Shown here piece by piece: positions 12,600-63,540 of a stretch of 64,000 nt of DNA (position 1 is its first letter; each line of letters starts with the position of its first letter). The translations under genes and the position numbers were made by a program. A model generated the notes under the pieces. It saw only the letters and a program-made list of their open reading frames with translations. It was not told where the DNA came from and did no database searches. The stretch is from Bolinopsis microptera (lineage: Eukaryota; Ctenophora; Tentaculata; Lobata; Bolinopsidae): positions 8,129,908 to 8,193,907 of the forward strand of contig NC_087082.1 in the NCBI RefSeq assembly GCF_026151205.1, read 5' to 3'.

Positions 12600-13332
12600 A
12601 AATAGCTGAAATATTCAACTCATAGTATATTTTCAATTTTGACTAGAATTTCACTGCAGTCACACCCTGCACAATAAATGTTCCTCACATAGTTGTACTA
12701 ATAATCATTTTAAATGGTATATGGAAAGCGTTTCAAGTTCTGCATTTTTAAACAAGCAGAACTTGAAACACTCTGCTCGTATTTAGGGTGTCGCTATGGT
12801 TTGGTTATACTTGTTGGTCACTTCAAATTTCGCCTATTGCAAAGGGGAGTAGTGCAAAATTCAGCACAGTAAGGCAATATAACACCAGACCGGTCAAACA
12901 ATATATATATATGTATATATACATTCAATTATAAATCAAGTGTTGCAATTGGCAGAGCACAATCAAATTAAGTGTTGCAATTGGCAGAGCACAATACATT
13001 GCTACCAATATTTTAAAACTTTAACAGTCAAATATATACAGTATAATACACACAAGTTTTAAAACACATGATCTACTCCATTGAAGGGGCAGGGATGAGG
13101 TGGTATGAGATAGAGGGTCTCATGTTTGGTGTACACCTTCTTTCCTCTGTACCCTGGCCCTTGTAGAGTAACAAAAGTTGCTCTCAACATTGCAAATCTT
13201 ATCCTTGTCTCACAATTTTTGCTTTGCAACACTGGTTAAATTACAGCATAAATTTAAAACTAAATTACTCAGTTATATATTACATGTTGTATTTGTATTT
13301 TAAAATTGTATTTCATTATTATTTAATCAAAC
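12600..13332. other. Upstream flank of the coiled-coil gene with small repeats
   Basis: Holds a hairpin (12730-12769), a TA-rich tract (12901-12922) and a 30-bp direct duplication containing AGTGTTGCAATTGGCAGAGC (12936-12993). The promoter and 5' exon of the coiled-coil gene probably lie here but I see no clear core element. Confidence 0.55.
12730..12769. repeat. Perfect 14-bp inverted repeat (hairpin)
   Basis: GTTTCAAGTTCTGC at 12730-12743 pairs with GCAGAACTTGAAAC at 12756-12769, with a 12-base loop. It lies about 230 bp upstream of the coiled-coil gene start codon on its minus-strand side. Confidence 0.85.
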
Positions 13333-14943
13333 GTGATTTCTGAATATCAATCCTTAGACGAGGCTGTGAACCTTTATCAAAATGTCCTTGAACAGGTGCT
13401 GGACAAACATGCCCCACTTATTACGAAACGATTTACTGCTGAAAAGTCTGATTTTTGGGATGAAAAATGTCAAATTGCTGTCAGAGAGAGGAGAAGAGCA
13501 AAACGAAAAGCCAAAAAGTATCCAGAGAATGATGAGTTTAAAACTACTCATTTTGAAAAGTGTGTTGACGCAGAAATCACCATCAATCGAGCTAGAGATA
13601 GCTACTATGATAAACAGCTCAGTTCTTGCAAAGGAGACTCGAAAGGGACATACAAAGTCATAAATAAACTTTTAGATAAAGAATATGGCTCCAACAAACT
13701 GCCAAATGGTGAAGATATCGAAGTGGCTGAAAAACTCAAGACTTTCTTCGACAAAAAAGTAAAAACCATTTACTCTAATATTGAGAAGGAAATTCACAAC
13801 ACTTCTCTAAACGGTCAAGGTACCAAAAACTCTACTTCAATAGAGAATGCAAAGTGTAGACTTGATCAGTTTAAGGAAGTCTCATTATCAGAACTTGAAA
13901 CCTTAATTAAGAGTCTTCCCAATAAATCAAGCGTACTCGATGTAATACCAATGTGGCTCTTCAAGAACTGCTTACCCGAGCTTCTCCCAATCATCCATTA
14001 CATCGTGAATGAATCACTAAGAGTTGGAAAGTTTCCATCTGCCCTAAAAGAAGCATCTATAAGGCCTGGACTCAAGAAACCTACCTTAGATGTTGATGAG
14101 CTGAAAAACTATCGACCGATTAGCAATCTAACCTATCTGTCCAAAATACTAGAAAAAGTAGTTCATTGCCAATTAAATGAATATGCTGATGTCAACAACC
14201 TATTTTCCCCATATCAATCAGGCTATAGAAAATTCCATAGTTGTGAAACTGCAGTTACAAAGATACATAATGATATTCTAATGATGATTGATAGCAAATC
14301 GAATGTTGTGCTTCTACTCTTAGATCTATCAGCTGCTTTCGACACCATAAACCATAATCTCCTTCTTACGAAACTGAAGAATGCATATGGTATTACAGAA
14401 CTAGCACTCAGCTGGTTACAATGTTACCTTAATAATCGCACATTCAAGGTTAAAGTTAAAAAAGCCACATCTTCTGAATGCTATCTGGATATTGGTGTAC
14501 CTCAAGGATCCATTTTAGGACCACTACTGTTCATATTGTATACCAGAGATCTTGAGGAAATTGTCACAAAATATGGTTTCTCGATACATTTGTATGCAGA
14601 TGACACACAGGTGTACTTTACTTTCGATGTTCACAGTTCTAATCCTGATTTAACAGCTGTGAAAAATTGCTTTCTGGAGATAAAGCAATGGATGACAGTT
14701 AACTTCCTAAAACTGAATGATGAAAAAAACAGAGTTCATTGATATAGGACCATATGTCAGCCCAATCCAGTCAATGGATTTAGGAGACCTCTCAATCTGT
14801 CCTGTTAGCAAGGCCAAGAACCTGGGATTCCTTTTCGATCACCAAATGAATCTGGACTCTCAAATAAATGCTGTCTCCAAAGTATGTTATTTGAATCAAA
14901 GGGACTTATCAAGAATCGGTTCAAAGCTTTCCCATGAACTAAA
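13333..14943 (+). pseudogene. LINE-A (CR1/L2-like) reverse transcriptase, 5' part of a split copy
   Basis: A 5'-truncated non-LTR retrotransposon begins between the endonuclease and RT domains. RT blocks in order: NYRPISNL (about residue 258), SGYRKFHSCETA, LLLLDLSAAFDTINH, GVPQGSILGPLLFILY and LYADDTQ, the catalytic Asp-Asp pair. An A-run at about 14722-14728 causes a frameshift: the frame then continues as FIDIGPYVSPIQSM through SRIGSKLSHELK to 14943. There a DNA element interrupts it. The same LINE resumes at 17174-17190 (KVQLVHS) and at 18436. It shares family traits (SGYRKFHSCETA) with LINE-E at 29-30.7 kb. Confidence 0.9.
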
Positions 14944-15017
14944 GGGGGGGGTGTCACGTCCGTCTATGTCCGCCTATGTCCTGTCCTTTTTGGATTCTAT
15001 GAGACAACGGACGTGTT

Positions 15018-15190
15018 TTTTGGGACATTGGCGGACACGGACGGACATTGGCGGACACGGACGGACATTGGCGGACACGGACGGACATTGGCGGACTCGG
15101 ACGGACATTGGCGGACTCGGACGGACATTGGCGGACTCGGGCGGACATTTGCGGACTCGGACGGACATTGGTGGACATTAGCGGACATAT
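15018..15190. repeat. GGACATTGGCGGACACGGAC 20-bp repeats inside the G-tract element
   Basis: About eight copies of GGACATTGGCGGACACGGAC or the variant with ACTCGG. The core TGTCCGCC/GGCGGACA also occurs in the 17012-17120 array and in the TIRs, suggesting subterminal protein-binding repeats (inference). Confidence 0.9.
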
Positions 15191-15423
15191 AAGAGGTCTA
15201 AAGAATAAAGATCTCACAAATATTCCCAATATTTAATTAAATCCAGTCACCAAATCCGGTCGCTAAATCCAGATCTATTTGTGTCGTCAACATATCTTTG
15301 AAACAGTTACACAGGGTACACAGTAGGCACAGTACCTATTTAACGAAATATAGGGAATATAACTTATATTAATCACACTAAAGCTATTAATAGCTTTAAC
15401 TTATTTTATCAAATTATATAGGG

Positions 15424-16862
15424 ACCCAGGAAAAGGCCCCAGGAGGAGGAGGAGGAGGAGGACTGGGGAGGAGGAGGACTGTTGAGGACTGATGAGGAGG
15501 ACTGAGGACGAGGAGGAGGAGAACTGAGGAAGAGGACTGAAGAGGACTCAGGAAGACCCAGGAGGAGGACCCAGGAGGATGACTCAGGAGGAGGAGGACT
15601 CAGGAGGAGGACTGAGGAGGACTGAGAAGGTGGAGGACTGTTGAGTACTGAAGAGTACTGAGGAGGATGGCTGAGGAGGATGGCTGAGGAGGATGACTGA
15701 GGAGGATAACTGAGGAGGATGACTGAGTAGGATGACTGAGAGGGAGGAGGAGGATCAGGAAGACCCAGGAGGAGGAGGAGGAGGAGGACCCAGAAGGAGG
15801 ACCTAGGAGGAGGAGGAGAAGGACTGAGGAGGAGAAGGAGGACCCAGGAGGAGGAGGACCCAGGAGGAGGACCCAGGAAAAGGCCCCAGGAGGAGGAGGA
15901 GGAGGACTGGGGAGGAGGAGAACTGTTGAGGACTGATGAGGAGGACTGAGGACGAGGAGGAAGAGTAGGAGAAGGACTGAGGAGGGGAGGAGGAAGAGGA
16001 CTGGGGAGGATCAGGAAGACCCAGAGGACCCAGGAGGAGGAGGAGGAGGAGGACCCAGGAGGAGGAGGAGGACTGAGGAGGAGGACTGAAGATGACTGAG
16101 AAGGAGGAGGACTGAGGAGTACTGAGGAGGATGGCTGAGGAGAATGGCTGGGGAGGATGGCTGAGGAGGATGACTGAGGAGGATGACTGAGAGGGAGGAG
16201 GAGGAGGACTCAGGAGGAGGACTCAGAAGGAAGAGGAGGAGGACTCAGGAGGAAGACTCAGGAGGAGGACTTAGGAGAAATGAGAAGGAGGACTGAGGAG
16301 AACTGAGGAGGAGGAGGAGGAGGACTGAATAGGAGGAGGAGAAGGAGGGGGACTGGGAGACGACTGGGGAGGAGGAGGACTGATGAGAAGGATGAGGAGG
16401 AGGACCCAGGAGGAGGAGGACTGAGGAGGAGGACTGAGGAGGACTGAGGAGGATGGCTGAGGAGGATGACTGAGAGGGAAGAGGAGGAGGAGGAGGAGGA
16501 GGAGGACTGAGGAGGACTGAGAAGGAGGAGGAGGAGGAGGAGGACTGAATAGGAGGAGGAGGGGGACTGGGGGAGGACTGAGGAGGAGGATGGAGGACTG
16601 AGGAGAAGGATGAGGAGGAGGACTGAGGAGGACTGAGGAGGAAGAGGAGGAGGATGAAGAGGAGAAGGACCCAGGAGGAGGACCCAGGAGGAGGACTCAG
16701 GAGGAGGAGGAGGACTAGGGAGGAGGAGGACTGTTGAGGACTGATGAGGAGGACTGAGGACGAGGAGGAGGAGTAGGAAGAGGACTGAGGAGGGGAGGAG
16801 GAAGAGGACTGAGGAAGATCAGGAAGACCCAGGGGAGGAGGAGGAAGAGTAGGAGGAGGAAG
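15424..16862. repeat. Purine-only GGA/GAC/GAA array, 1.4 kb
   Basis: Dominated by GGAGGAGGAGGACTGAGGAG and CCCAGGAGGAGG modules with higher-order repeats (for example 15424-15530 recurs at 15880-15990 and 16690-16790). The strand asymmetry is extreme. The minus-strand Pro/Ser-rich frame across it is a repeat artefact. Confidence 0.93.
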
Positions 16863-17011
16863 CATCTAAATGTTATTTCCATTTTTGTCCGTTTTTGTCC
16901 GCTCTATTTTTTGTCCGTTTTGAAAATATAAGGTACCAAACGGACAAAAAACATGATCCCCCTATAACAGCAAAAATTTAACATTTTATTTAGCAATTTA
17001 GGTGTCCATTA

Positions 17012-17130
17012 ATGTCCGCCTATGTCCGCCTATGTCCGCCTATGTCCGTCTATGTCCGCCTATGTCCGCCTATGTCCGTCTATGTCCGCCTATGTCCGCC
17101 TATGTCCGCCTATGTCCTGTCCTTTTTGGA
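17012..17130. repeat. TATGTCCGCC 10-bp tandem repeats
   Basis: About eleven copies of TATGTCCGCC or TATGTCCGTC run into the right terminal module of the G-tract element. The matching left end has only two copies. Confidence 0.9.
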
Positions 17131-17173
17131 TTCTATGAGACAAGCGGACATAGACGGACGTGACACCCCCCCC

Positions 17174-18435
17174 ACTAAAAGTTCAGTTAGTTCACTCCAA
17201 TATTCAATGAAACAAGAAATTTCAATGAAACAAGAAATTTAATTTTAGCACATTTTACAGAATAAAAAGATGTAAAACAATTCATAAAATATAATGCCCA
17301 TTTGGTGTATGACTTTTTGTCCTTGACTGCTAGTTTGGTTTTGGAAGGACAGGTAACTAACGGGGCAAGGAATGCGCGTGCCTGAAAGCTTTTGCACACA
17401 CCGAAACGCTAGTTCAGTTAGGTTTTTAGAGACAGGGCTCATTTTAGGACTAGAAGAAATTTGTTAGTAGACATTAGGGGTTCTGTTTATAGTTGTTACT
17501 ATAGGTTGCAGTCTTGTTGTGACAAAAAGTCTACACTAAAACATGCTTTAGTTTATATTGTGTGGTTCAAGGATATAAAATGTGGCTTCAAGGTGGATAT
17601 TAAAGAGCTTGCGAAAAATTATGGCCTTTGTATCAATGGTTATAATAAGCTATAAATATCTTAAACTATACAGTGCTAATTAAAAATTTCTTTATACTTC
17701 ATTCTCAGATTAGATTTAAAAATTCAAAAAATATACATTTATTTTATTAATACCTTCTCACACATTCTTTACTCACAGGACAAGACTTGGAAAACAGTAG
17801 CCTAGAGGAATTTAATTGAGATGTGTGTGAACAGCCAGTTATAATGTTTGGAAAATAATATTTGTGCAGTCAAAATCTTTTACGGTCCAATCAAGCAGGG
17901 CGTGGTTATGCTGATTGGCTAATAGCGCACTTTTAAGTTTTCCTCGCAAGCACATTACACTAGTAGTAAAGTCAGTCATTCTGAACTTTGGGGTTAAAAT
18001 GTTAAAAATTTTGGTTGACCTAGTGTTGTGGTTGTCAGGTGGGTCTACCTGACAGATAAGAAGGCAGGGTTTCCTCGACGAACATGTGTAACCCTCATAT
18101 AGGGATATTGGAGCACGGAATTTCATTATCTTGTAGAGCTCGAGGTAACTGTGGTATGTATAGAGATTTTGTATAGCTAGAATATTATTATGCTTGAATA
18201 TCGGTTTGGTGTGTTCTTTTATGAAAAATTTTTGGTCAAGTTTCTGGTGTCCTATAGGCCTAGTACGTGCACAAGTCTTAAACTTATCAAGGTACGCCAG
18301 CCTATCACCAAATAGTACTCTGAGACAGTACTTCTGAGCAGTAAATAAGTCAGTCAAAAAGCTCCACTTTTTACCTGTTCGGTTCAGAATCAAGTTCAAA
18401 ATATCACTTCTGGTCTTCAAGTGTCTTAATAACAT
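17174..18435 (-). pseudogene. LINE-B 3' fragment, antisense insertion into LINE-A
   Basis: The minus-strand frame at 18435-17839 carries the region after RT of a non-LTR element: CLRVLFGDRLAYLDKFKTCA then EHTKPIFKHNNILAIQNLY, matching the same region of LINE-D (CVRILFGNREAYLEKF). The 3' tail is at about 17200-17240 as TTTCTTGTTTCATTGAAA repeats. It replaces about 70 codons of LINE-A, whose frame stops at KVQLVHS (about 17190) and resumes at 18436. So the event was insertion plus deletion, or a template switch. Confidence 0.82.
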
Positions 18436-36936: not shown

Positions 36937-37574
36937 ATACCATTACTGAAAGAGTATGACACTTTCAGAGTCCTGAACGCACTCATATATCTCTTAATCG
37001 TCAATTATATGAATTTAACCTGTTAAAATATATCATCCTTAACTGATGTCGATTGAGTTTAACACTGTTAGCTTTTTAAAATAAAATAATGCTTCACACC
37101 AAACTTACACACAATATAAAAAATTCCTTCTTTACAATATAAAAAATTCTACATTAACTGCCCCCCCCCCTACTGTAGCATAAAACTTTAAAATTAACGA
37201 GCCTATTTGACATTGGAGATAAAGTTGACATAATATTAACGTGTACCAATTATATACAGAATAATAACGTGTTATCATTGTAACAGGATTACACATGATT
37301 CAAATTAAACTATCGTGAACCGTCATATTTGTACGCAATTAGATAAACAAAGGATTACACTGTGTATAATATCATATTACTACTGCGACGTGTCACCATG
37401 GTTACAACTGTACTATACTACGTGTGGGCCGTGGGGGAACATTTTGCCCACTTAACCTCATGAAATAAAGTTCAACAAAATATGTACATTTACATTTGGA
37501 GGGGGATTTGTTTTAAAACATATAAGAGATACGAACAGAGTCTAATGACGTGGAAATATGGTATGTTCTGGGGT

Positions 37575-37775
37575 AGGTATGTGTAATACCATGGTTATTA
37601 GCCACTGGGGTAGGTACTGGGGTAGGTACTGGGGTAGGTACTAGGTACTTGTAATACCATGGTTACTGGGGTAGGTACTAGGTACTTGTAATACCATGGT
37701 TACTGGGGTAGGTACTGGGGTAGGTACTTGTAATACCATGGTTACTGGGGTAGGTACGTGTAATACCATGGTTAC
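37575..37775. repeat. CCATGG minisatellite in the left arm (inverted sense)
   Basis: GGGGTAGGTACT and TTGTAATACCATGGTTACTG units, about ten, are the reverse of the 45270-46330 array but far fewer copies. Confidence 0.93.
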
Positions 37776-39905: not shown

Positions 39906-40287
39906 CAAGGACAAAAGAAAATCGCGATAATTTAGGCCAAAAATCACGGCGCCGCGACAAGCCAAACAAATCGCGGCGAAAAGATAATATTTTTGCAGAG
40001 CTAAGTTAGATGTTATATATTCCCAAACTATTTAATTTTATCGGCTCATGTTCCATGATGATTTAATCTCAAATCACATCATCATGACAAGTATCTGACA
40101 AGTGATAATCAATAATAACACTGATTTCACCTAACTGCACAATTTCATAATCCATTGTATGACTCTAATGGTCAAGTCTATGTAATGTCTAGTGGTCTAG
40201 TGAACTTTATGAGGTTTCTGCTTAAGACAGCTTACTATCAGATAGAACCATCACACCCGTCTCTTTAATACTTTTCTCTGGAGTTTT
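39906..40287. repeat. AAATCGCGATTTGTCGCGG-related fragment and flank
   Basis: AAAATCGCGATAATTT, CGCGACAAGCC and AATCGCGGCGAAAAG are related to the 44462-44610 tandem units in inverted sense. The rest (40000-40287) is AT-rich with GTCTAGTGGTC strings that recur at 43900-43955. Confidence 0.6.
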
Positions 40288-40419
40288 ACTGCTTAACTTA
40301 TTAACTTATTAACTTATTAACTTATTAACTTATTAACTTATTAACTTATTAACTTATTAACTTATTAACTTATTAACTTATTAACTTATTAACTTATTAA
40401 CTTATTAACTTATTAACTT
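40288..40419. repeat. (AACTTATT)n octamer array, about 16 copies
   Basis: Perfect 8-bp tandem repeat over about 130 bp inside the giant inverted-repeat element. Confidence 0.95.
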
Positions 40420-40999
40420 CTTCTAATTCTAGATAGAGCGGTAAAGTAAGAATGCGTGTTTCTGCTTGCCCCATATCATAACCGTTTATACACGGTTATT
40501 TTAAAACATTCTACATTCTATGCTATTGTGTACAATGGGTATTTTTTCGTAGATTCCACGGTTTTTCAAGTGAACAAGTTGTTCTTAGGCACGTGCTTCT
40601 GGAACAAGTGGTCCTATGGCATATTATGGTTATCGGACAGAATGAGGTTTAAATCACTTTACATCTTTAGATCTATCAAGTAGTGGCAAAATTTTGCAGC
40701 TCAGGCTCAGTGGGCGACTTAGAGGCTGTGGCATATTGCCAGCATTGTGGCATCCTTTGTATAAGTTATTCACTATCAATATGTTCGTAAAAATATTTCC
40801 TTTACCATTATGAGCTGTTTTCCGTATTGAGTTCGCTAAGGTTTGTTATAAAGTTATAATATAGATTCATTGTCTTGGGCATGGTTCCAAATCTCATGAT
40901 TCAATGTCACTTTAAAAATTCCTAACTTGGCCTTAACTAACCTTATGCCTAACACATTACATATTATTTTATTTCCTCATCTTTGCCTTTTATTTGACT

Positions 41000-41704
41000 G
41001 TACTATTGTTCATCTTCTCGTACAATTCCTTAAGTTGGGTAAGGCATCGTCATATTTGTTAAATGATTGATTAACTAATTAATTAATTATCTAATCCAAA
41101 GGTTGTTAGAGAAAAAGTTGTTCTATTTTATGTTTTAAACACATTGGTTCAATCTAGAACCTTCTACGACATTCAGAAGTCGTTTTATTAGCGGAGATTC
41201 AATGTGGTGAAAAGTGGTAATAGTGGTTATTCTTTACAAATTTCGAAAAGTCCAAAATATTGAAAGTGTTTTATAAAAGTTTAATAAAAATTAGTTCATT
41301 ATACGTGTAATGTATTTGTGAACATTATTTATCAAAATGTATTTTTGAAATATTTAAAAATTTATTAATTATTTACGTAATCAAATAATTAAATAATTTA
41401 TTTTTGAAAAAGTTGTTTATGAAAAAGTTGTTTAAGAAAAAGTTGTTCTTCTTAGTTTTCTAAACATAATGCTTTAAACTAGAATCTTCTAGGATATTCA
41501 GAACGTGACTTATTTGCGGAAAACCAAAGTGGTAAAAAGGTGGTAAAAAAGTGGTAATTGTCGATTTTGGAATTCTCTGGAATGATTCCTGGGACCTGTC
41601 CCGACCATTTCCCGTTAAAATTGCTTAGTTGCGAATTTTGTCCGACAAAAAGACGTATTTGACTGTATTATTTAATTTCTTCATCTTCTCGTACAATTCC
41701 TTAA
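41000..41704. repeat. Diverged direct duplication of about 350-650 bp
   Basis: TCATCTTCTCGTACAATTCC occurs at about 41010 and 41684; AGAAAAAGTTGTTCT and CTAGAA(C/T)CTTCTA(C/G)GA pairs at about 41110-41170 and 41435-41495; AGTGGTAATAGTGG and AGTGGTAATTGTCG follow. This suggests an old tandem duplication, the second end of which was the target of the piggyBac-like element. Confidence 0.65.
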
Positions 41705-43823
41705 GGGGGCATACACCAAAACAGTGGTTTGTGCCGTCCAGACCAAATGACCTCATAGGCAGTTCAGTGACCTTCTAGCGCACCGTTTCCACACCAAAAA
41801 AAATTATTTTGAGAATACCCATTTTTGTAATCGACCATTTCCTGGTTAAGAGTGCAATTTTCGGAAAAAATTATTTTGTGGTTGAGACACTATAAGTTAA
41901 TCATATTTTGCGGTATCGGGTTGAAATTTTGCTCGCCGTTTATTCACATCTATTTCAAGGTGTGTGTAAAATGTTGATATCGTATCTAAAAAGGCTGGTG
42001 TGTTATGAATTTTTAAAGTCAAAAAGCTAAAATTGTCCTTTTCAGGCTTATTTTAACAAAAAGTCAGTCAGGGAAGATCGGATTGTTTGATGCTTGACAT
42101 CAAATTATTCTCTGAATTCTGGCGCAGTTTTTGATGCCCTCAAAAATGTTTTTACTCATTCACCTTCTGATCTATTGGACCTCAAAGCCAAACAACAAAT
42201 TTAGGCACATTTTTCGTTTTTAATATTTACTGATTTTTCCAAAATTTTGATAGGAATGTGCTAGTGACTTTTTGAAGGGTGCAAAATAACCGCAACTAGC
42301 ACATTTATATACAGGGTGGGCCAAAAGTCAGTACCCATACGTTGGCCTTAATAGCTCCGCTGTGTTTTATATCTGAGAGCTGTTGCTTTGCAGATGGCAT
42401 ACTGTACTTACTGGTTCGAGGATTCCGTCGTCAAAATTTAAAAATTCGAATATTTTAGACCACGCCCATTCAATATTAAAACACTTATATTGTTTTCTCT
42501 GAACATGCTGAACGCCTAATTTTTTCAGAGACGGTAGATTATCAAATGTTGCATATGATCTAACAACATGAGGGAAAACGGATTAGAAATGACGAAGTTA
42601 TCAAGCATTTTCTGTATCTCGTTAACAATATTGACTGGGTGATTATGTGACACCGTGACACGACACCTTAATTGGGCACTCTTAACAATTCCCATAATGT
42701 TTAACGGGGTAGTTAACGGGGGCACCTTATCACGTGATTAGGTAAACCAATCACCTGATCACACGTAATGAATAAACTCGTTATGCTTCATATCTCGGTC
42801 ATCTGAGAAGGTACAGTTCTAATTCTTTCAGGACAAACGTAATTCGAATGGCCAAACACAATTCAATAACATTTAGCTTGATCCGACTATCCAAATTATC
42901 AAATAAATGTGAAAATGAACCTCCATTTGAAAAAAATGAACGCGAATATTTTTCGAGTTGACAAATTCCTCGAACCAGTGGTGGTACTAAGTCATACCAG
43001 AAAGAAGTATTTAAATTGGGCACTCAGTGACTGAGCTATAAAGGCCAACGTATGGGTACTGACTTTTGGCCCACCCTGTATGAGTTATGAACAAAAAAAC
43101 ACCCTTAAATGCTTCCCTTTGAAGTTATGGGAAAAAATGTGATTTTTTATCTGCAAAGCCAAAAAATCACATTTTTTCCCATAACTTCAAAGGGAAGCAT
43201 TTTAGGGTGTTTTGTTGTTCATAACTCATAAATAAATGTGCTAGTTGCGGTTATTTTGCACCCTTCAAAAAGTCACTAGCACATTCCTATCAAAATTTTG
43301 GAAAAATCAGTAAATATTAAAAACGAAAAATGTGCCTAAATTTGTTGTTTGGCTTTGAGGTCCAATAGATCAGAAGGTGAATGAGTAAAAAAATTTTTGA
43401 GGGCATCAAAAACTGCGCCAGAATTCAGAGAACAATTTGATGTCAAGCATCAAATAATCCGATCTTCCCTGACTGACTTTTTGTTAAAATAAGCCTGAAA
43501 AGGACAATTTTAGCTTTTTGACTTTAAAAATTCATAACACAACAGCCTTTTTAGATACGATATCAAGATTTTACACACACCTTGAAATAGATGTGAATAA
43601 ACGGCGAGCAAAATTTCAACCCGATACCGCAAGAAATGATAACCTTATAGCGTCTCAACCACAAAATAATTTTTTCCGAAAATTGCACTCTTAACCAGGA
43701 AATGGTCGATTACAAAAATGGGTATTCTCAAAATAATTTTTTTTGGTGTGGAAACGGTGCGCTAGAAGGTCACTGAACTGCCTATGAGGTCATTTGGTCT
43801 GGACAAATTTGGTGTTTGCCCCC
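41705..43823. mobile_element. TTAA-flanked near-perfect palindrome (piggyBac-like foldback MITE)
   Basis: The element starts GGGGGCATACACCAAA and ends TTTGGTGTTTGCCCCC, and is bordered by TTAA on both sides (41701-41704, 43824-43827). TTAA duplication with G/C-rich ends is the piggyBac pattern. Once the nested 767-bp MITE is removed, the two arms are each about 670 bp and nearly perfect complements around a centre near 43155 (CAAAGGGAAGCATTT... arms). The flanks AATTCCTTAAG and TTAAGTGGGGTAAGGCATCG rejoin as the sequence seen intact at 41029-41050. No transposase frame. Confidence 0.85.
42312..43078. mobile_element. Mariner/IS630-like MITE, 767 bp, nested in the palindrome
   Basis: Termini CAGGGTGGGCCAAAAGTCAG (left and reversed right) are identical over at least 37 bp. 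It is flanked by TA dinucleotides (42310-42311, 43079-43080), the target of Tc1/mariner. The interior has no transposase frame. Confidence 0.88.
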
Positions 43824-44049
43824 TTAAGTGGGGTAAGGCATCGTCATGTCAATGTTTGCAGTTTTCCAGAGTCTAAAGTCTAAAGTGGTCTTGAAACTTT
43901 ATGTCTAGTGGTCAAGTTGTATATGTCTAGTGGTCAACTTTATGTCTAGTGGTCAAGTTTTTGGCTAACAATGTTACGTCAGCAGACGACTAGACGATTG
44001 GGTTAAGAAATGCTATTGAAAGTGGATTCCTGTAAAACAATCGTTTTCC

Positions 44050-44350
44050 ACAGTTCATGCTACCCTGATCATTATATCATATATATTATGTGAACATATT
44101 TTCTCGGTTTACTTTACTGAAGTCCGTACCTAGTAATAGTACCTACCTCTCGATATACGATTTGGGATTCGAGGCTTCCCTTTTGTTACTTGTAATGCGA
44201 TCTCGGAATGCAGGCGGGAGCTCTGTCATTAGAGGTACGTATCGAGAATTACTCGGACCGAAAATTTTCTCAGTCAAAATTTTTCAAAGTTTTTCTGGAA
44301 ACTTTTTTTCATGTTCATGTTTCATGCTACCCTGATCATTATGAGCTTCT
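44050..44350. repeat. Direct duplication flanking a 270-bp segment
   Basis: TTCATGCTACCCTGATCATTAT occurs at about 44054 and 44321, and CTGAAGTCCGTAC at about 44118 and 44347. No gene. Confidence 0.65.
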
Positions 44351-44461
44351 GAAGTCCGTACATACATTCGGAAGGCTGTGAATGTGATTAGTTCCATATA
44401 ATACTTAAAAAGAACGTGATATTTGGCACTCAGATTTAAAGGAGAATGCGCAAATTTGGTT

Positions 44462-44610
44462 CTCAGATTTAAAAGAAAATGCGCAATTTGTCGCGGAGAA
44501 CTGAAATAGTCACGATTTGTCGCAAGGATCTGAGAAAATCGCGATTTGTCGCGGCAAACGTCAAAAATCGCGATTTGTCGCGGAGAATGGGAAAAATCAC
44601 GATTCCGCAC
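44462..44610. repeat. AAATCGCGATTTGTCGCGGA tandem repeat
   Basis: Four to five units of about 36 bp share CGCGATTTGTCGCGG, a near palindrome. The array borders the right arm of the giant inverted repeat. Confidence 0.85.
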
Positions 44611-45269
44611 GTGCCGCGATTTCCTTTTTCCTTGATAGGGAAGCGTTATTGGGCTGTAAACCCAACTTAAATCGATTTCTCGTACAACGTTAGGTGAAGA
44701 ACAGTCACCAAAATGAGTTGCTTACCTGCTGTGTTTTTTCGTACTCTGCTCTTCGCTCAAGTTGCAAAGCTGCAATAAACATATTGCAACGAACATTTCT
44801 ATCTGCAAATTGTGTTAGTACCTGTTCAATCAGTTAAAGTGAGGATTGCCTCGATCTTTCGGTTTCAGCTTAACTCCCTAGGCCCTGGGTCCTGAGTAGA
44901 ACCGAAGGATCAAAATATATGTTGCTTGTTGCTCGTATTAACTATAAAACGTCAATTTTGATGGATAAGGAAGTGTTAATAGGTCTGAAACTTAGTTAAA
45001 TCGATTTTTCGTGCAATTATAGGTCAGAATCAGTCATCAAAATGAGTTAATAAGAGGGTCGATTTCTCGGTTATTTTTGAGCTTTCGTTCAGAAAATAAT
45101 TCGGGACCTTCAAAAGTTCAAAGGCCAAAGGGGGTAACAAGAAGGAGTTATGTAAGCGTTCTATAATTCCAAAGTGGCATCACATCTTCAACCTGCTGAA
45201 TAGAGGCGCCACTTAAAAGTAAACAAATATGTATCACCTCCCCACGGGAATCGATATCTATTAAGTTTA

Positions 45270-46330
45270 ACCATGGTATTACACGTACCTACCTCAGTAA
45301 CCATGTTATTACACGTACCTACCCCAGTACCTATAACCTACCCCAGTACCTACCCCAGTAACCATGGTATTACACGCACCTACCCCAGTAACCATGGTAT
45401 TACACGTACCTACCCCAGTACCTACCCCAGTAACCATGGTATTACACGTACCTACCCCAGTAACCATGGTATTACACGTACCTACCCCAGTACCTACCTC
45501 AGTAACCATGGTATTACACGTACCTACCCGAGTACCTACCTCAGTAACCATGGTATTACACGTACCTACCCCAGTAACCATGGTATTACATGTACCTACC
45601 CCAGTACCTACCCCAGCAACCATGGTAACACGTACCTACCCCAGTACCTACCCCAGTAACCATGGTATTACACGTACCTACCCCAGTACCTACCCCAGTA
45701 ACCATGGTATTACACGTACCTACCCCAGTAACCATGGTATTACACGTACCTACCCCAGTAACCATGGTATTACACGTACCTACCTCAGTAACCATGGTAT
45801 TACACGTACCTACCCGAGTAACCATGGTATTACACGTACCTACCCGAGTACCTACCTCAGTAACCATGGTATTACACGTACCTACCCGAGTACCTACCTC
45901 AGTAACCATGGTATTACACGTACCTACCCCAGTAACCATGGTATTACAAGTACCTACCCCAGTACCTACCCCAGTAACCATGGTATTACACGTACCTACC
46001 CCAGTACCTACCCCAGTAACCATGGTATTACACGTACCTACCCCAGTACCTACCTCAGTAACCATGGTATTACACGTACCTACCCCAGTAACCATGGTAT
46101 TACACGTACCTACCCCAGTAACCATGGTATTACACGTACCTACCTCAGTAACCATGGTATTACACGCACCTACCCCAGTAACCATGGTATTACACGTACC
46201 TACCCGAGTACCTACCTCAGTAACCATGGTATTACACGTACCTACCCCAGTAACCATGGTATTACACGTACCTACCCCAGTACCTACCCCAGTGGCTAAT
46301 AACCATGGTATTACACATACCTACCCCAGA
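45270..46330. repeat. CCATGG minisatellite in the right arm, about 1.06 kb
   Basis: Around 45 modules of ACCCCAGTAACCATGGTATT plus ACACGTACCT, with or without an extra CCCAGTACCTA step. CAGTAACC, GAGTACC and CTCAGTA variants are spread through it. All long open frames on both strands here are repeat artefacts. Confidence 0.96.
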
Positions 46331-47086
46331 ACATACCATATTTCCACGTCATTAGACTCTGTTCGTATCTCTTATATGCTTTAAAACAAATCCCCCTCCA
46401 AATCTAAATGTACATATTTTGTTGAACTTTATTTCATGAGGTTAAGTGGGCATAATGTTCCCCCACGGCCCACACGTAGTATAGTACAGTTGTAACCATG
46501 GTGACACGTCGCAGTAGTAATATGATATTATACACAGTGTAATCCTTTGTTTATCTAATTGTGTACAAATATGACGGTTCACGATAGTTTAATTTGAATC
46601 ATGTGTAATCCTGTTACAATGATAGCACGTTATTATTCTGTATATAATTGGTACACGTTACTATTATGTCAACTTTATCTCCAATGTCAAATAGGCTCGT
46701 TTATTTTAAAGTTTTATGCTACAGTAGGGGGGGGCCTAGTAAATGTAGAGTCACTGCAGGATGGTTCCTTTTGCAAGGTTCTAATTACTAGTTACTAGTT
46801 AATAGTTACTAGTTCTAGTTACTCCTGACAACGGCTAAATGTTCACAAAACACCTGTTTATATAAGGTTTCTGAGAAAATGTAACAATTCAGTAAAACGA
46901 GGCTTTACTATAATTAACAATCAACACTGTGCATCATGCCATCATGCCATCATTCCGTTTCCAAAATGTTATTTTGGTTATATTTTAAGTAGTTGTATTT
47001 AGATAACTGATATTACGTATTACACTACAGTAACCATATGCATAGTAAAACTGTATACTACAGGTATGGAATGATGGATAGTGATC

Positions 47087-48336: not shown

Positions 48337-51300
48337 TAGTGCACATTACTCCATGTTGCCACAGCCACTAAAGCAAGGTGTCTTACACAGTGACGTGTGT
48401 ACTGTGTAATGAATAAAAAGGGGTATCCCGTATCATTTACTTTGTGTGGTACAAATTTTATACAATTATACTGATTAGATTAGGCAGTATACTTATATGT
48501 AGTAAGATTTACACATATCACACATACGTGTCGGTTTTTTTATAAAGAGAATTTTTTAAATTCAAATTTTCAAGGAAATCAGAGCTGAGATAGAAGTAAA
48601 AGACAGCACCCTGGAGCAGGCACTAAAAGATCACCAATCTTCTGAGAATGTGCCAGTTTCAAATTCAAAGACAAAACTTGTCATTATTGCTACGGAGAGC
48701 AGGTCAGTTACTGTTTTAATGTACCTTACTCGGGAATATTATGACTGGGATAAAGTGGTTGGTTTTGGAAAATTCCGCCATATTTTTCCCGGTCATTAAT
48801 TTTCCCAGTCATAAATTAACCGGCTATAATGTTCCCGAGTAAGGTAAACTAATGGTAATACATTTTGATGCTTGGTGGGTTTTGGAACATTCCGCCATAT
48901 TTTTCCCGGCCATTAATTTTCCCAGTCATAAATTAACCCGCTATAATATTCCTGAGTAAGGTAATCTCATAATACTACTACTAGGGGGGGGGGGGCCAAC
49001 GCCCCAAAAGGCCCACACATATCGAAAATCCGAAAAGGGCCCTAGAAATCGGGGCTTTTTGGGGCCTTTTGGGGCCTTTTGACCCTTACCACTATTTGAT
49101 AGTGTTTATGGACCATAATCTCCATGTTAATACACTCAAATAAACACAAAAGTACTGTGCAAGTAGTCAGATAATATCATTAAAGCACTTCGCATATATC
49201 AAACTTGATGAAATTGAAGTTAATTCTAGGGCCCCAAAAGGCCCTACACATATCGAAAATCCAAAAAGGCCCTAGAAATCGGGGCTTTTTGGGGCCTTTT
49301 GACCATGACCACTATTTGATAGTGTTTATGGACCATAATCTCCATGTAAATACACTCAAATAAACATGAAAGTACTGTGCAAGTAGTCAGATAATATCAT
49401 TAAAGCACTTAGCATATATCAAACTTGATGAAATTGAAGTTAATTCTAGGGCCCCAAAAGGCCCTACACATATCGAAAATCCAAAAAGGGCCCTAGAAAT
49501 CGGGGCCTTTTGGGGCGTTGCCCCCCCCCCCCCCCCCCTACTACTAGTAGTAGTACTGGGTGGCCCAGAAGTAACTGCCCACACGCAACCCTTTAATAAC
49601 TAACATAATTCTTCTTACAATTGCACAGAAATTTCAGAGATTATAGATATGGGTCAAACTTAGATTTCCTGAAAGTTTCGTCAAATTTAATTAATTACAG
49701 TGGGTGTGGCACGCAAATCCCTCTTTTTCGCTAATGTCACCATAAAGTGAGAACACTTTCAGCTAGGGACTTCAAAGTTTCGAGACACATTTGGCTTGAT
49801 ATTTGGAGTGTTTTCCCAAAATTTCAAGTTGGTTGTTCACAATTTTACTGAGTTATGCCCCTTTTAAGATCTTGCAGATACTTGATCCAGAACTTAATTT
49901 TGGCCACCCTGTATTACTCATCTCATAATGAGTTTATATAGTTATATGTATGTTAATAAGTTTATGAAACACTACAATAATATGAATGTTAATAAAACCA
50001 CCCCACACCCCCCCCCCCCCCCCCCCCCCCCAACACCATGAGGTTCCATTCTTTCCCTTCAGTGGCCTCTGCTTTGTATAACGCTGTGCCTCACGAAATC
50101 AAGTCTATCCCAACTTTGCCAAAATTCAAGGCAGCACCTGATCGCTTTCTTCATACCGTCCCCGACACCCCTCCTACCCCTGGAATCTGGATATACAGGG
50201 GCTAATGGCAATTCAATCTCGGAATGGGCTGTGAGCAAGACATGATAACGGAGACACCGGTGGTGGAGACGCAAGATGTCTGTCCCCCCCCCCCCCCCCA
50301 CATAACAGTAAACCCCCCCCTAACAATAAACATCCTCCCCACTTAATAGTAAACTCCCTCTAACAGTAAACACCCCCCCCCCCCCCCCCCCGGCCGCCCC
50401 TCCCCCCATAACAGTAAACACCCCCTCCCCCCTTAACAGTAAACAACATTCCAGGTCCGGCTCCACCTGGCTGGGGACCATATTTCAGATGATACCTGAT
50501 CTGATGTACGTGTTCGAGCCCCTAGATGCTCGACATGCTAGTGGCATGGGATATCCGCATGTGAGTGTTTATTATCACTTCGAGATGGCAGGGCCTACTT
50601 AAAATATTTCGCAGATTGGCAATTGATCGGTGTAGTTGGTGTTGTACACACTGCACTGATAATGATATCACGTTGAACGTGTAATGTAAATATAGTGTGG
50701 ATATATGCGAATATATATTCTAAATAACTGAGTGTTTATTGTATGAACAATTATTTTGGGACAAATTATTATCGAAACATTATAATAATAAATTATTAAT
50801 TTCACACATCTAATAATCAGAAATGAGATCAAAATTAATTTATAATTGTGGGAATGTCGTTTTAAAATAGAGTTAGCACTTGCAGTGGTTAAGTTGAGTT
50901 AAATAGGCCTAGGGTTTTAGCACAGAAGAGCTATTAATAACTATTACTTACTTCGACTTCGACTTAGGGCGGTTCAATGTCCGAGCAGATATGATTTTTC
51001 TCCAGATATTTCTATCCAGCATGAGCTTGTTAATCTCTCTGCTGTCGTGTCCCTCCGTATAGCATTCATCTACTGGGTGACAGTTTTAGAGCCATATAGA
51101 TTATAGAAGAAATGGCAGGGACCGGGAAAAATTCAACAGTTGATAATGCACTTATTGAGTAATGTTGACTGTAATGTTGACTGTAATGTTGACTGTAATG
51201 TTGACACTAAATCTTTCAGGCACAGCACGATCCATTTGATAACAGGCAGCTGTCAGAAGACTCAAAGTTGAAAGTATTGTCTAGTCTGTGCACGTGCAAA

Positions 51301-54300
51301 TTTCAGACAATACAAGCCTTTGGAAAGGCGCCAGTAACGGTGGAGCAGTCAAGTCATACAGAGTACAATCTCCACAAGGAGGTGCTCAGTAAGTACCATT
51401 AACTCTCATGATATTTTATTTTAAATAATAATCCCCAATTCAGTAATGATAATTTCAAACTTGAAGAAACTTCATAGAAAACCGAATTTGAGCTTCCCAG
51501 CCAATAATTAGATGTCCCAAAGAGTCTCCAAAAATCTGGATACTCTGGAGTCTAGAAATTTGATGATTATTGGGGAAATTGTATGAATGTCGCGCAAATG
51601 TCGCCCAAGGTTTATTCTCAGAATTGTAAATTTTGTCGCCCACATCGGAAATTAACGCCGATAAATTATACTGTAGGGAGAAAACTGTCCGTGAAAGACC
51701 TTGTCCGGAAAAGGCCTAGTTCACACAGAGACATGTCAAATGGTAAATGGAGTTATCGAGTAATGTTTGTTCTGTTAGATTAATAACTGCAAACCAGATA
51801 ACAGCTGAAATCAAAGGATGGAACATTGATTTGAAATTTACTTTTAATAAACAGCTAACGAACAGTGTATTATTAAGGTGCTCTACTGTTTACTGTAGTT
51901 GATTAATTCATGATTGCCAAAACAGTGAACAAAATCTCCCTCGACGTGATTCCAAACCGCCAGGATTTCCCTTGATATTCACGCCTAACTACTCCACTAC
52001 GTACGCATTGACCCTTACGATAAGCTTAATCAAGAAAACGGTCAAAGGTATGGGACTGGTTTTTTCAGTATAGTGCCGAAAAAACTCTGTTTTTATGTGT
52101 ACTCATTTGATTTCAGCTATTATCTAGTTTGCAGTAACCATAATTTACCAAACCGAATATCTGACATGTATCTTTGTAAACAAGGCATTCTCCGGGTAGT
52201 CTTCCGCACTTTTTCGCTATTTCGGATCCGAACTTGGGCGATTTAGACTACTGATCTGAGGAGTTGGACCTTCCGTACCAATCTGTACCATGGTACAATA
52301 TTTGACGAAAGTCGATTATTTCGAGATCTGAATGTTAGATTTTCTTTAAACTTGCCAGATAAGTCATATGGCTATAAGACGGATGATCTGTGCAAGTTTG
52401 GGCGAATTTCTATGTGCCAAATTTGAGATATCACTTCAAATCATAAGAAAATATCTCCAAATCGATACAATATATACAAAGGCATTTATCTGCAAACCCC
52501 CCATTTTGAGGTATTTTCTTGTGTTTGAAGTGATATCTTAAATTTGGCACAGATTATCCGTCTTATGACTGACTATAAAACTATCTGAAAGTTTCGAGAA
52601 AATCGTATATTCGAATCTGGAGAAAATTTAAAATTAGTTAAGTTATTTGTTGAAACACTCTATTTTCGACCTTTACCATATTATGATATGGTACAGTGCA
52701 GTTTTGACGAAAGTCCTTCTGGGTCCAGGAGGTGTTCTAGCAAAATTGTAAGCGAAATTGTAAATATGTCCCCCAAATGTCGCCGATTATCGATGTGAAT
52801 TTACGCACGCACCGAACTTATTCGCTATTTTTGAACCAATTCACACCATTCACACCAATTCACACTTATTCACAATTTTGAGATGAAAACATCTGGATCG
52901 AGGAGGTGTTCTAGCAAATGTGTGGGCGAAATTGTGATTATGTCGCTTTATGTCGGGCGAGGTTTATTTCTCAGAATTGTGGGTATGTCGCTATTATTCG
53001 GATCCATAAATAACGAAAAGTTACTTGCGTGCGCCTATTTTTATATAGTTTTATAGATCTACATATTGTAAATCTGCTGAGCCTCTCGTAGGACGGCGGC
53101 TAAGGCCATTATAGTTAACTAGCTCATCCCGGTTCGAGCCTCGTCAGAGGTCATTTTTTTTGCATTTATTGATTACTTTACTACAATTATCAGCAGAGCA
53201 CCTTAGTAATACACTTTATCAGATAAATTGTAGTGTTCGGACTTCAGCTAGAGAAGACTTGCCTTCAAGGTTTTGTACGGAGAAGGCTTCGTTCACACTG
53301 GAACATGTCAAATTATCTGTAAATGTTTTTTTTGTTTATGGTTAGAATTTAGAATGGAATCAATGTGATGAAGATCCAGAGTTAATTACCTGCTAGGATT
53401 AATAAGTCAGTTCTACAGTTGAAGAGATTTTTTTCAAACTTTAAATGAAGAAATCGGCTCGGAACTTCATTCCTAGATTCATCACTTTCAGTTAGTAACT
53501 ACGGTGTACCATGGAACCAGTTAAAGCAGCGGATCAATTCAAAACATTCACATCCCACATTCTTAAATCTACATCCTTCACCAAAACCAGTTTGACCACT
53601 TAACTTTTCATTATTAATTGCAATATGAGAGGCGAGAGCCTGTAGCCAGTGCAGGAACAGTACCTTGAGATTTCGACCGTAACCGGACCATTTTTACCGT
53701 TACCGGACCATATCATCTTCATCTTGTGGCATGGTTCCCAAGCCTGATAGTAATACATATGCACTATGGCAGTATCTAGTATATCCTGAGCGGTGGAGAT
53801 CTATCAATAAAGCACTGTTCGTTACCTGTTTATTAAAGGTATTTCCAATCAATATCATGTGTGATAATTCCAGCCTATATCTATTTTTCAGGAACCATAA
53901 ACAATAGTCAATATACATACAATACAAGGCCTTCTCTGGGTAGTCTTCTCCTGACAACAGTATTATTTATGTAAACTCGCGCACGCACCTACCTTTTTGC
54001 GCATAACCATAGTTTTGAAAAGCGACATACCCACATTTTGAGAAGAAAACATCTACTGTCTGGATCTGAGAAAACACCCTTCTGGAACGCGCAAATGTGT
54101 TTTCTTTTGAGAGTAAAGCGCTTTAAGGCTAATTACCAAGCGCGCGGCCGGCTCGATCATAATATAATATCCGTGGCCTGCTGCATGCATGCAATGCATC
54201 CGGCCACGGATGAGGATGTTGTACCAGTGTCGAGGATGTTGTATGATGAGGATGTTGAGGATGTTATACCAGTGTCGAGTAAGCACTAAGCATCAACATT

Positions 54301-57300
54301 TTGGAATTAATTAGGGAATGTTAGATACAAATAATAATAATTTACATGAAACAAAACACAGATGAAAACACTGCGCAAAATTACCTACTATACAAATAAA
54401 CCACATACAGACGGCGACACCCAAAATGCTCGTAGAGTTTTTCAAGTTATACACGCCTAAAATTAAAACAGGATTGTCACGTGCGACACAATCCACCCTA
54501 AGATGCAAGTATAGTTTTACTAGTGTAGCCCAGGCCTAGTTTTATACTTTCCACTTAGAATTATAACTGGCACTTTGAAACACCCTGCTGTATCGTGCCT
54601 GGTGTAACCGCGGCGAAATTCTTGTTTTGACTGATGCGTGGTTGTAATAATGTTATTGATCTCCAGTACGTAATATAGAGCATTTACTAGAATTCTTCAG
54701 TAAAAGACATTCCAAATTCTCCCTTATATTATTAATATCAAACAGATTGCTGTTTTTTTTTTTCAAACAAATTCAAATTGTCTGATATAGCAGATTGAAG
54801 TGTTGCCTAATAAAATAAATAACTAGCATATTGATATATATAACAGATTTAATATTGATATCATGTAATTTATTTATTTAATTCGCAGAGGGTAGGAACC
54901 ACATGGAGACGTTTTGTTCCGAATTTTCTGTGGTCATGCCGAAATGTATCAGATTAACGGACCTGTCCATCCTTAAACGGTTACCTGAGTTCGGCTGCTC
55001 TAACTTCCAGGTTTAATATAATAATGGGGGGGGGGGGGGGGGGGCCAACCATATTAAAGTATATTAAAGTATATCCCCGGGTCAAAATCGGAAAAAATCC
55101 TACATTTTAATATACTTTAATATACCTACAATTAGTAGATTAGAAGATAAGCCAATTACTGGTCCCCTGAACTCATACTTCATATATTTTGGCTCATAAA
55201 TTAGTCAAGTATCAATATCTTTGAACAAGACTAACCTTACATGAAAGGTAAATCTAATCTATACATTAAATAAAACAAAATTTTTCACATAATTTTTTAT
55301 AATGTAGGTATATTAAAGTATATTAAAGTATATTAAAGTATATCCCGGGTCAAAATTGGAAAAAAAACCTACATTTTAATATACTTTAATATACCTACAA
55401 TTAGTAGATTAGAAGATAAGCCAGTTGCTAGTCCTCTGAACTCATAATTCATATATTTTGGCTCATAAATTGGTCAAGTATATGGTAAGTAACATGGATT
55501 CAAAATTTTAATGGAGAAAATGTAGGTATATTAAAGTATATTAAAGTACATTAAAGTATATTAAAGTATATTAAAGTATATTAAAGTATATTAAAGTATA
55601 TTAAAGTATATCCCCGGGTCAAAATTGGAAAAAATCCTACATTTTAATATACTTTAATATGGTTGGCCCCCCCCCCCCCCCCCCCAATAATAAGTTAATA
55701 ATAAGTTAATATAATAATAAGTTAATATAATAATAAGTTAATATAATAATAAGTTAATAATAAGTTAATATAGTAATAAGTTAATAATAAGTGTTTCTGA
55801 AACAGAATATCGTTTATACTCATTGATAACGTTCTTTAAGCTTACAGATCTTAACCCTATGTTACTGGTCATGGTATGTTACTGGTATGTTACTGGTATG
55901 TTACTGGTATGTTGCTGGTATGTTACTGGTATGTTACTGGTGTCTGATGTATATGCTAATTGTACGTAATGTTATTCTTTGTCAGGTTGTACATTTGATA
56001 CGAGATCCCAGAGCTGTTCTAAGATCCAGAATGGTTACTTTTCACGAGCTCTACAGTGGCAACGGACAAAAAACAGCCGTAAATGTACCTTTATTATTAT
56101 CTCTACAGTGACAATTACGGACAGAAAACAGCCATAAATGTATCTTTATTATTAGCTTTACAGTGGCAACGGACCGAAAATAGCCGTAAATGTACCTTTG
56201 TTATTAAATTCTAACTTCTAGTTACTTAGATTTCAGTGAATAACCAGTTTCATGACATGATTCATGCCAAGTACCAGACTTTTAGCTTGGGCAGCCTAAA
56301 TAAACTCATAAAAGGACTCCCAGGAAATGAGTGAGGAGATGATTTACGAAGCAGCGGTTGCCTTGTGTACTAACGGCGTGAAGAACGGGGCTACAGCCAA
56401 AGAGCCATGGTTACAAGAAAGATACATAAGAATACGATACCAAGATGTACGTTAATAACCTCCCTACCCCACCGGCCCGGCCCGCCCGCCCGGCCCCCCC
56501 CCCCCCCCCCCCCCCCCAGTATAACAGGACTGTACAACGGAGCTAGACTAGCGTGATCTTATTATTATGTGACATCTCCTGTATAATGTATAATGTATAC
56601 GTGTATAAATATAATGTATACGTGTATACTGTATATTGTATAATGTATATCTCCTGTAGATGGTTGATAAACCCTACGATAAAGTGGAAGAGTTGTATAA
56701 CTTTGTGAACAAGCCGGTCACAGAGAGAGTTACAAACTTTGTGGACACTTCAATGACAGGACATTCCGTCGGGTCTAACTTTGGTGTGAGTTCAATTAAA
56801 GATTCTTTATTTTCTTATAATCTTTCAAATCTTCGTTGTAGTGTTAACTTAGTATACTATACTATTGTAATAATCAAAAAATATTCATCCCGACCGAAGA
56901 TACAGTCGATCTAAGTGTAAAACATTAGTCATTAGACACAATGTAATAACTACAAAACCGATCATAATTTGGCTCCAATATTCATTGCATGTGCTCGTTT
57001 CATCCTCGTTACCACTTACCAATACCTTACATTTTCATTTTGCTGTTGTTCATCCAATTCCGCGTGGGTGGTACATATGTATTAAAAAACTTTCGAATTA
57101 TATAACTTGGATAATAAGACATTTTCAACTGTGGTAACTGATCATTTTAGTACCTAGAGCTGTATTTGAAAAATCAAACACAATGCATACCATTAACAAT
57201 GTGATTCGATCGAATCATTCAAAATATCTAAAATACGCGAAAATAAACGTTCATTCGGGAAAAAATGTACATCGTTATTATTTGATTTTTTATATTCCTC

Positions 57301-60399: not shown

Positions 60400-60688
60400 C
60401 AGTGGCGTAACGTTGCCTGTTGGCGCCCCCCTGCCGAAAAAAGCGCCCCCCTGTTGGCGCCCCCTCCCCTTTTGGTGCCCCTCCCTAAAATTGAACAAAT
60501 TAGGTGATTTTAAAGAATACGCCGGTAAAATCTCTAAAAAAGTGTGTATCTAGAGCAAAACGTGCAGTTTTGCTAGTACTTTAGTTAAGTTTTCGAAATT
60601 GTCCCACATTCAAACGACGATTTGGCACCCCCCTAAGACGGCGCCCCCCTGCACAGCGGGGTCAGCAGGGCCTTTCGTTACGCCACTG
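60400..60688. mobile_element. TIR element, 289 bp (CAGTGGCGTAACG termini)
   Basis: The first 13 bases CAGTGGCGTAACG are exactly complemented at the end (60676-60688). The flanks TCCAGGAC and TCCAGTGT share five of eight bases, which could be a worn 8-bp hAT-type duplication. The interior repeats GGCGCCCCCCTG several times. It lies inside a scrap (60373-60399) of the long-TIR element family. Confidence 0.82.
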
Positions 60689-63043: not shown

Positions 63044-63540
63044 GAGGCCATCTAACATCCAGGACGCACTAAAATTATTTTATTTTGGCTGGTGCTTGAA
63101 ATATTGATTAGTAATCGAATGTGATCTTTGCGAAATTTTGTGTTGTAGGGTTCCAATCCTCGTTTGGACAACTACGCCGCGCGTTTTAACTCATAGTTAA
63201 TTGTAAACGGTACAAAGCACATCAAGCGCATCCACTACAGGTAATCTATATGATTTGGTCGTCCAGGACACCTTGCAATTTGAACTATTGACTGTTATGA
63301 TTCTGCGCGGCTGAGATTGTATACGTGTGGTGTCCTGTTTCACCCATGTTATAAGTTTTTGTTTATTTGCTGTCGCCTGTGACACATTACATACATGAGG
63401 CACTGTGGCCTGTGTGTAACTGTAATGTACGTTGTAATAATTTAATTAAAGTCATCAGTGAATAGACATCGGCAGTTTGGGGGGGGGGGGGGGGGAGAGC
63501 TTGGGGCGGTCCCAAGCCCCCCCCCCCCCCCCCCCCATTC
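63044..63540. repeat. Partial copy of the 32092-33424 long-TIR element
   Basis: Matches 32110-32720 in order: ACTAAAATTATT, TGGCTGGTGCTTGAAA, CAATCCTCGTTTGGACA, GTCCAGGACACC, GAGAT(T/C)GTA, GACACATTACATACA, GCAGT(TT)GGGGG. It ends at a G run (63480-63495) and a C run (63519-63533) forming an inverted pair around GAGCTTGGGGCGGTCCCAAG. Confidence 0.8.

Follow-up and report, generated by a model that had tools for sequence, protein, structure and literature searches.

Non-autonomous DNA transposons are a known kind of mobile element, and several described groups come close to the elements reported here. Foldback-type elements (FB/NOF, Galileo and Tetris) have ends composed of short tandem repeats and inverted arms, and foldbacks of the Mutator-like element (MULE) type also carry arms of short tandem repeats. 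The ends of hAT elements usually begin YARNG. Target duplications of 6 bp are given both for the hAT6 group and for the IS3EU superfamily, the latter with TAYGG..CCRTA ends (PMC12730594). Two further sources describe Dada-U6 elements with 6-bp duplications and without terminal inverted repeats, in a group (Dada) that targets small RNA genes (PMC3706591), and report duplications of 4-10 bp for IS256/MuDR elements (PMC10045372). Here we describe three insertions with guanine-homopolymer ends in a 64-kb window (the whole stretch of DNA that was analysed) of Bolinopsis microptera contig NC_087082.1, together with their relatives elsewhere in this eukaryotic assembly (264.65 Mb, 232 contigs), in which a search for COX1 gave no match.

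The three stretches are inserted mobile DNA, and each comes from a dispersed family, termed here family 1, family A and family B. We interpret them as members of three families of short non-autonomous DNA transposons that have poly-G ends, duplicate about 6 bp of target, carry hairpin-forming blocks inside their ends and are moved by a transposase supplied in trans; we put the probability of this reading at roughly 0.86. The elements are called non-autonomous because no transposase was seen in the copies read.

Insertions and empty sites

An initial annotation of the window had proposed that three stretches with unrelated interiors each begin with a G run and end with a C run. Their coordinates and runs are confirmed as G8/C8, G12/C18 and G19/C19 for families 1, A and B, respectively, as are the flank duplications ACTAAA, TACTACTA and AATAAT. 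The elements and the sites that bear on their insertion are listed below.

14944..17173, + strand: family 1 element, 2230 bp, G8 TGTCACGTCCGTCTATGTCCG ... C8, with AGG-rich repeats inside
14938..14943, + strand: left target duplication ACTAAA of the family 1 element, which also has an empty site
17174..17179, + strand: right target duplication ACTAAA of the family 1 element, which also has an empty site
13327..14943, + strand: reverse transcriptase sequence of long interspersed nuclear element (LINE) type, split by the family 1 element; similarity resumes over 24-26 bp from 17180
48984..49538, + strand: family A element, 555 bp, G12 CCAACGCCCCAAAAGG ... C18, with a unit of ~220 bp present 2.3 times
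48976..48983, + strand: left flank match TACTACTA of the family A element, 8 or 5 bp (ambiguous), in a TAC repeat
49539..49546, + strand: right flank match TACTACTA of the family A element, 8 or 5 bp (ambiguous), in a TAC repeat
55026..55685, + strand: family B element, 660 bp, G19 CCAACCATATTAAAG ... C19, with ends 96-98% like those of the copy L023
55020..55025, + strand: left target duplication AATAAT of the family B element, in an AAT repeat
55686..55691, + strand: right target duplication AATAAT of the family B element, in an AAT repeat
36950..37080, + strand: uninterrupted dispersed sequence, empty site of the family 1 insertion L043 by joined-flank comparison
60426..60575, - strand: uninterrupted dispersed repeat, empty site of the family B insertion L026 by joined-flank comparison

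When the flanks of the window family 1 element are joined with one ACTAAA removed, all 40 of the 40 listed matches run through the junction, and four of them are 100% identical along 126 bases, including 24-26 on the right-hand side of the junction. Because only the best 40 of 648 candidates were scored, this establishes that uninterrupted LINE copies exist and gives no measure of their share. Thirty-seven joined flanks were also compared with the sampled DNA, and four match across the junction. The family 1 copy L043 has two uninterrupted counterparts, one without gaps (L064) and one in the window at 36950-37080 with two gaps off the junction. Among the family B copies, L026 has seven uninterrupted relatives and L022 has one paralogue. 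The fourth, L009, is located in a tandem repeat, where such a match proves nothing, and it was not used. Since the empty sites show clean insertion, the G and C runs lie within the inserted DNA; in the copies concerned, the runs are not target DNA, bar one ambiguous C in L026.

Each family is defined by an inverted end that recurs across the genome. The family 1 end (a 21-mer) has 409 exact genome matches, the family B end (a 21-mer) has 256, and the family A end (a 20-mer that includes 4 G) has 39, with no match to the control in any case. The G run accompanies these ends almost everywhere: at least 6 G lie directly outside 238 of the 256 family B ends, and at least 7 G were found at 95 of 100 family 1 ends (the first 100 among the matches listed, compared by hand), with 6 C at the one of the remaining five that was read. 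Families A and B have G_n CCAAC in common, and family 1 shares only the run with them. The pattern G12CCAAC occurs at 263 exact places in the genome compared with 11 for its reversed form, and a search for a further family of the CCAAC type gave only 4 genome matches for G10CCAACT against 2 for the control, so that none shows.

Part of the movement is recent, because family B copies are 94-99% identical to their best relative over the aligned part and the window family 1 copy is 99.4% identical to the copy L041 across 2230 bp. The window family B copy matches L023 at element positions 1-116, 295-385 and 542-660, with two spacers between that have no match, and as judged from such sequences the family B ends have moved with a different interior.

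Runs as such are common in this DNA. The window has 22 G or C runs of at least 8, six of them within the three elements, and base composition predicts 0.25. A lone G run is therefore no evidence of an element, and the criteria applied to the elements were pairing, inverted ends and flank duplications rather than runs.

Several other runs and repeats were noted in the course of this work. A 58-bp sequence at 63479-63536 of the window, G17-AGAGCTTGGGGCGGTCCCAAG-C20, has the polarity of the elements and no flank duplication, and is perhaps a remnant or an unrelated palindrome. A single G30 run with no C-run partner (L022:4347-4376) has the 6-bp direct repeat CAATAT on either side, and no other of the 116 distinct contexts of runs of at least 10 has a flank repeat of 6 bp or longer. 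The dispersed repeat at 60426-60575 is also represented in L016, L018, L021, L024, L025 and L026, and some copies adjoin a poly-C run and a TGTTGG-like sequence. A G run with CCAACAGG in L016, L024 and L025 was considered as an element end and appears instead to be part of a dispersed repeat.

Target-site duplications

Flank duplications were counted in two sets of copies, drawn mostly from the first 100 listed places for each end pattern and hence mainly from contigs C1-C5. The first set contains 40 copies with both ends (three from the window and 37 fetched); L009 was admitted to it partly by its duplication, and L008, L025 and L075 were omitted. Runs and inverted ends were the sole criteria for the second set, which excludes L009, includes L008, L025 and L075, and has 42 copies. 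Not counted were L049 (the same insertion as L047), loci fetched twice (L001-L004, L006 and L007), loci with one end or tandem ends only (L005 and L029-L040), loci with abutting or partial ends (L056, L058 and L059), the rearranged L072, and, as nested or tandem, the inner copy of L017, the second copy of L025 and the inner ends of L028.

Direct duplications of at least 5 bp flank 37 of the 42 copies in the second set (27 of 6 bp, five of 5, three of 7 and two of 8). The presence of such duplications in other copies had been set as a test by the initial annotation, and its proposal stands on this point. A duplication of exactly 6 bp occurs in 9 of 10 copies of family 1, 15 of 26 of family B and 3 of 6 of family A. 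In the first set, on which the shuffle and end-block tests were made (with 40 and 39 copies, respectively), a flank match reaches 5 bp or more in 36 of 40 copies and is exactly 6 bp long in 28. When flank pairs were shuffled between these copies, the corresponding proportions were 1.3% and 0.5%, and none of 3000 shuffles exceeded 4 matches of 5 bp or longer. The 6-bp targets of this set are 83% A+T, compared with 66% in nearby flanks and 61% in the window. Two of the three window duplications are weak when taken alone because they are located in simple repeats, and it is the further copies that settle the point.

End architecture

The inverted ends agree closely within single elements: counted over the first 14 bases inward from the runs, 39 of 40 copies have 13 or 14 matches and L009 has 9, in a sample chosen partly on that very feature. 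Just inside these short inverted ends, 36 of 39 copies carry a block of 56-74 bp twice, once at each end and in direct orientation, with 84-99% identity between the two; it is missing in L013, L028 and L050. The blocks of the window elements are as follows.

14958..15012, + strand: family 1 left end block, 96% identical to 17094-17149 in direct orientation
17094..17149, + strand: family 1 right end block, within a hairpin-forming stretch (17070-17165) that contains 10-bp repeats
49001..49068, + strand: family A left end block, 94% identical to 49451-49519 in direct orientation
49451..49519, + strand: family A right end block, partner of 49001..49068
55051..55123, + strand: family B left end block, 99% identical to 55588-55660 in direct orientation
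55588..55660, + strand: family B right end block, partner of 55051..55123

Within each block, which folds as a hairpin, a core separates an outer arm from an inverted inner arm. The z-scores for the six blocks of the three window elements are -3.0, -3.7, -5.1, -3.9, -3.0 and -5.5, with z = -5.1 for the fold at the family B left end (55045-55130). Autocorrelation peaks at 10 bp in both family B ends and in the family 1 right end, and at 20 and then 10 bp in the family 1 left end. Because the block sequences differ between families, what the ends share is a form and not letters. The element L057 is 139 bp long and consists of one end block bounded by G23 and C31, with the duplication AAATAA.

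Some copies have rearranged ends or unusual surroundings. In L056 (190-245), two ends of family A meet head to head as GTTGG-C15-G11-CCAAC, with no DNA between them. In L028 (2996-3600), a family A left end and its flank (TAACGAAGATATCA-G_n) have been amplified as a minisatellite with units of ~40-50 bp and variable G runs. Three pairs of family B ends at 2.4-kb spacing (C5:6766337-6771828) suggest that a segment with a family B element was triplicated in tandem. Forms of (C)AGGGTGG(C/G)CCAAAAGT and their relatives adjoin the window family A element (~49555-49640) and also occur inside the family B copies L010 and L013; judged by eye, these would be mariner-like ends. An open stretch at 54888-55025 ends CTTCCAG/GTTTAA and is likely the end of an exon with its splice donor; the G run of the family B element begins 15 bp further on.

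Proposed mode of movement

An element has G_n at the left and C_n at the right, then, moving inward, a family-specific inverted repeat of ~20 bp and next the hairpin-forming block of ~56-74 bp, which holds the 10-bp repeats and has the same orientation at the left and the right. A transposase acting in trans would cut the element out or copy it, and the element would be joined to an A+T-rich target through a staggered cut of ~6 bp, giving rise to the duplications. We infer a cut-and-paste route, although copy-out transposition would produce identical traces. The hairpin blocks or the 10-bp repeats are predicted transposase binding sites, and run length presumably drifts by slippage between insertions. 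By analogy, and on the basis of the common duplication length and architecture, one enzyme may serve all three families. Recognition of the G-tract termini by such an enzyme is compatible with the presence of a run at nearly all ends, but the length ranges from 6 to 58 and the host is poly-G-rich in any case.

The initial annotation had suggested that the three elements may be one class of non-autonomous elements moved by one enzyme that recognizes G-tract termini, and had pointed to C and G runs near the outer ends of a giant inverted repeat as well. The class itself, with G-run/C-run ends and ~6-bp duplications, is well supported by the end families, the flank duplications, the empty sites and the shared architecture. 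The giant inverted repeat does not belong to it: its C10 run at 37161 and G8 run at 46727 are located within the arms and face the other way (C left, G right), and the similarity of the arms continues outward. This large inverted repeat (37148-46749) has outer arms that are mostly 93-99% complementary and contains minisatellites of the ACCTACCCCAGT type.

A number of observations weigh against our interpretation. No autonomous copy or transposase was found in the elements read, so that the terms 'non-autonomous' and 'one enzyme' are founded on absence and analogy. In five of the 42 copies no clear duplication is present, and in ten it measures 5, 7 or 8 bp. The 10-bp repeat is weak in the family A ends, and families 1 and A/B have no end sequence in common past the G run. 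With only three families, a single end architecture could be the outcome of chance and common slippage in a poly-G-rich host. Furthermore, not all copies are young, since the remaining family 1 pairs are only 82-93% identical over their aligned parts.

Alternative explanations

The main rival to recognition of the G tract is that the long run is passive: these would be ordinary transposons of at least two known superfamilies, whose ends had a few G at first and were lengthened by a poly-G-prone host. We consider this a serious possibility, at somewhat below even odds. The excess of runs in the window agrees with it, as does the lack of a common sequence past the run in families 1 and A/B, and so do the run lengths themselves. 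In 40 copies the G run measures 7-58 (median 18) and the C run 6-50 (median 15.5), and within single elements the two show no clear correlation (rho 0.25, p 0.14, 35 copies). One insertion is present both on contig C10 and on the small contig C18, which is probably the other haplotype of C10. Its runs are G47/C14 in one contig and G13/C24 in the other, and beyond this the two differ in the main alignment by a single mismatch and two gap openings; slippage or consensus error fits the difference in length. On the other hand, duplications of ~6 bp are uncommon among superfamilies and occur in all three families here, together with the same direct end-block architecture, and nearly all counted ends hold at least 6 or 7 G, whereas drift should yield short ones also. 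A passive run conflicts only with run recognition or a single enzyme, and not with the class being real.

The elements may instead belong to a known superfamily with ~6-bp duplications (hAT6-like or MuDR/Foldback-like) whose autonomous copies lie outside the sample, which we regard as possible and rather unlikely. The genome does have candidate sources of a transposase, with 88 matches to MULE and at least 150 to hAT (150 scored of 365 candidates), and the published duplication lengths cited above for IS256/MuDR and hAT6 would accommodate it. In the small sample of loci read, however, no paired G-run/C-run inverted ends were found at three of the 88 MULE loci (5 kb each) or at four hAT loci (4 kb each) of the 150 scored, and one MULE (L065) seems, by eye, to have an 8-bp duplication. 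The MULE-type loci L063 and L065 have inverted ends of short tandem repeats such as CTGTCCGAAAGCGACAT, in a style like that of family 1. Two family 1 ends located 4-7 kb from a MULE match proved to belong to complete copies without a transposase, and thus merely neighbours.

A search from the element side was also negative. Inspection by eye of the interior of the window family 1 element gave no transposase-like frame. The longest convergent end pairs among the matches listed (L072, L073, L074 and L076) are nested, rearranged or neighbouring copies, and seven open frames from them have no Pfam matches and are not transposase-like. Seven frames beside ends, also compared with Pfam, gave host domains and one DUF3504 protein, and no transposase tied to an end; other frames beside ends were judged by eye only. 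The P-type transposase profile PF21788 has no match in the genome, and likewise none in the control genomes.

It is very improbable that the runs are untemplated tails added at each transposition rather than inherited: the lengths at the ends vary widely and are not clearly correlated, as such tails might, but the insertion shared by contigs C10 and C18 varies without a new insertion, and slippage or consensus error is simpler. Sequencing or assembly artefacts, suggested by the error-prone nature of homopolymers and by the two contigs that differ on the length of one run, are an almost negligible prospect, because random error cannot place a run at 238 of 256 occurrences of one exact end, its complement at the other end and duplications outside them, and such doubt touches exact run lengths only.

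Comparison with known systems

As interpreted here, the three families resemble MITEs and other non-autonomous DNA transposons in that they are short, have no transposase seen, have terminal inverted repeats and target duplications, and are represented by hundreds of ends; they differ in their G-homopolymer termini and in the direct hairpin blocks inside the ends. In search listings of open-licence full text, we found no literature on poly-G-ended transposons of this kind and no description of G-homopolymer termini combined with direct hairpin end blocks and ~6-bp duplications.

The duplication length fits IS3EU (27 of 42 copies have exactly 6 bp). The elements cannot be identified with that superfamily, since they lack the TAYGG..CCRTA termini, and in four copies the position of the ends at G_n/C_n is established by empty sites. 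Dada was rejected as well, as the present elements have inverted ends and varied A+T-rich targets. The hAT6 group is alike in its 6-bp duplications, and the four hAT loci read here are without G-run inverted ends. The likeness to Foldback-type elements lies in the tandem repeats and inverted arms of their ends, and the foldback-like arms of the present elements also resemble those of MULE-type foldbacks; Foldback-type duplications are 7-9 bp, unlike the ~6 bp found here, and we know of no G-run termini among them.

It is conceivable, though we hold it doubtful, that the three families represent a transposon lineage outside the described superfamilies, in which the transposase would use a guanine homopolymer as the outermost end and bind to a hairpin block that carries 10-bp repeats (one helical turn), while the rest of the ends would be free to diverge and one enzyme could serve unrelated families. 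Whatever their affiliation, the runs spread poly-G tracts over the genome, in the window to within 15 bp of a likely exon end. As a rule, no part of a DNA transposon is more sequence-specific than its termini. The present families have homopolymer ends that vary in length, and all that the three have in common is the run, the duplication length and the architecture; if one enzyme does move all three, it would recognize its ends by run and shape, and not by sequence.

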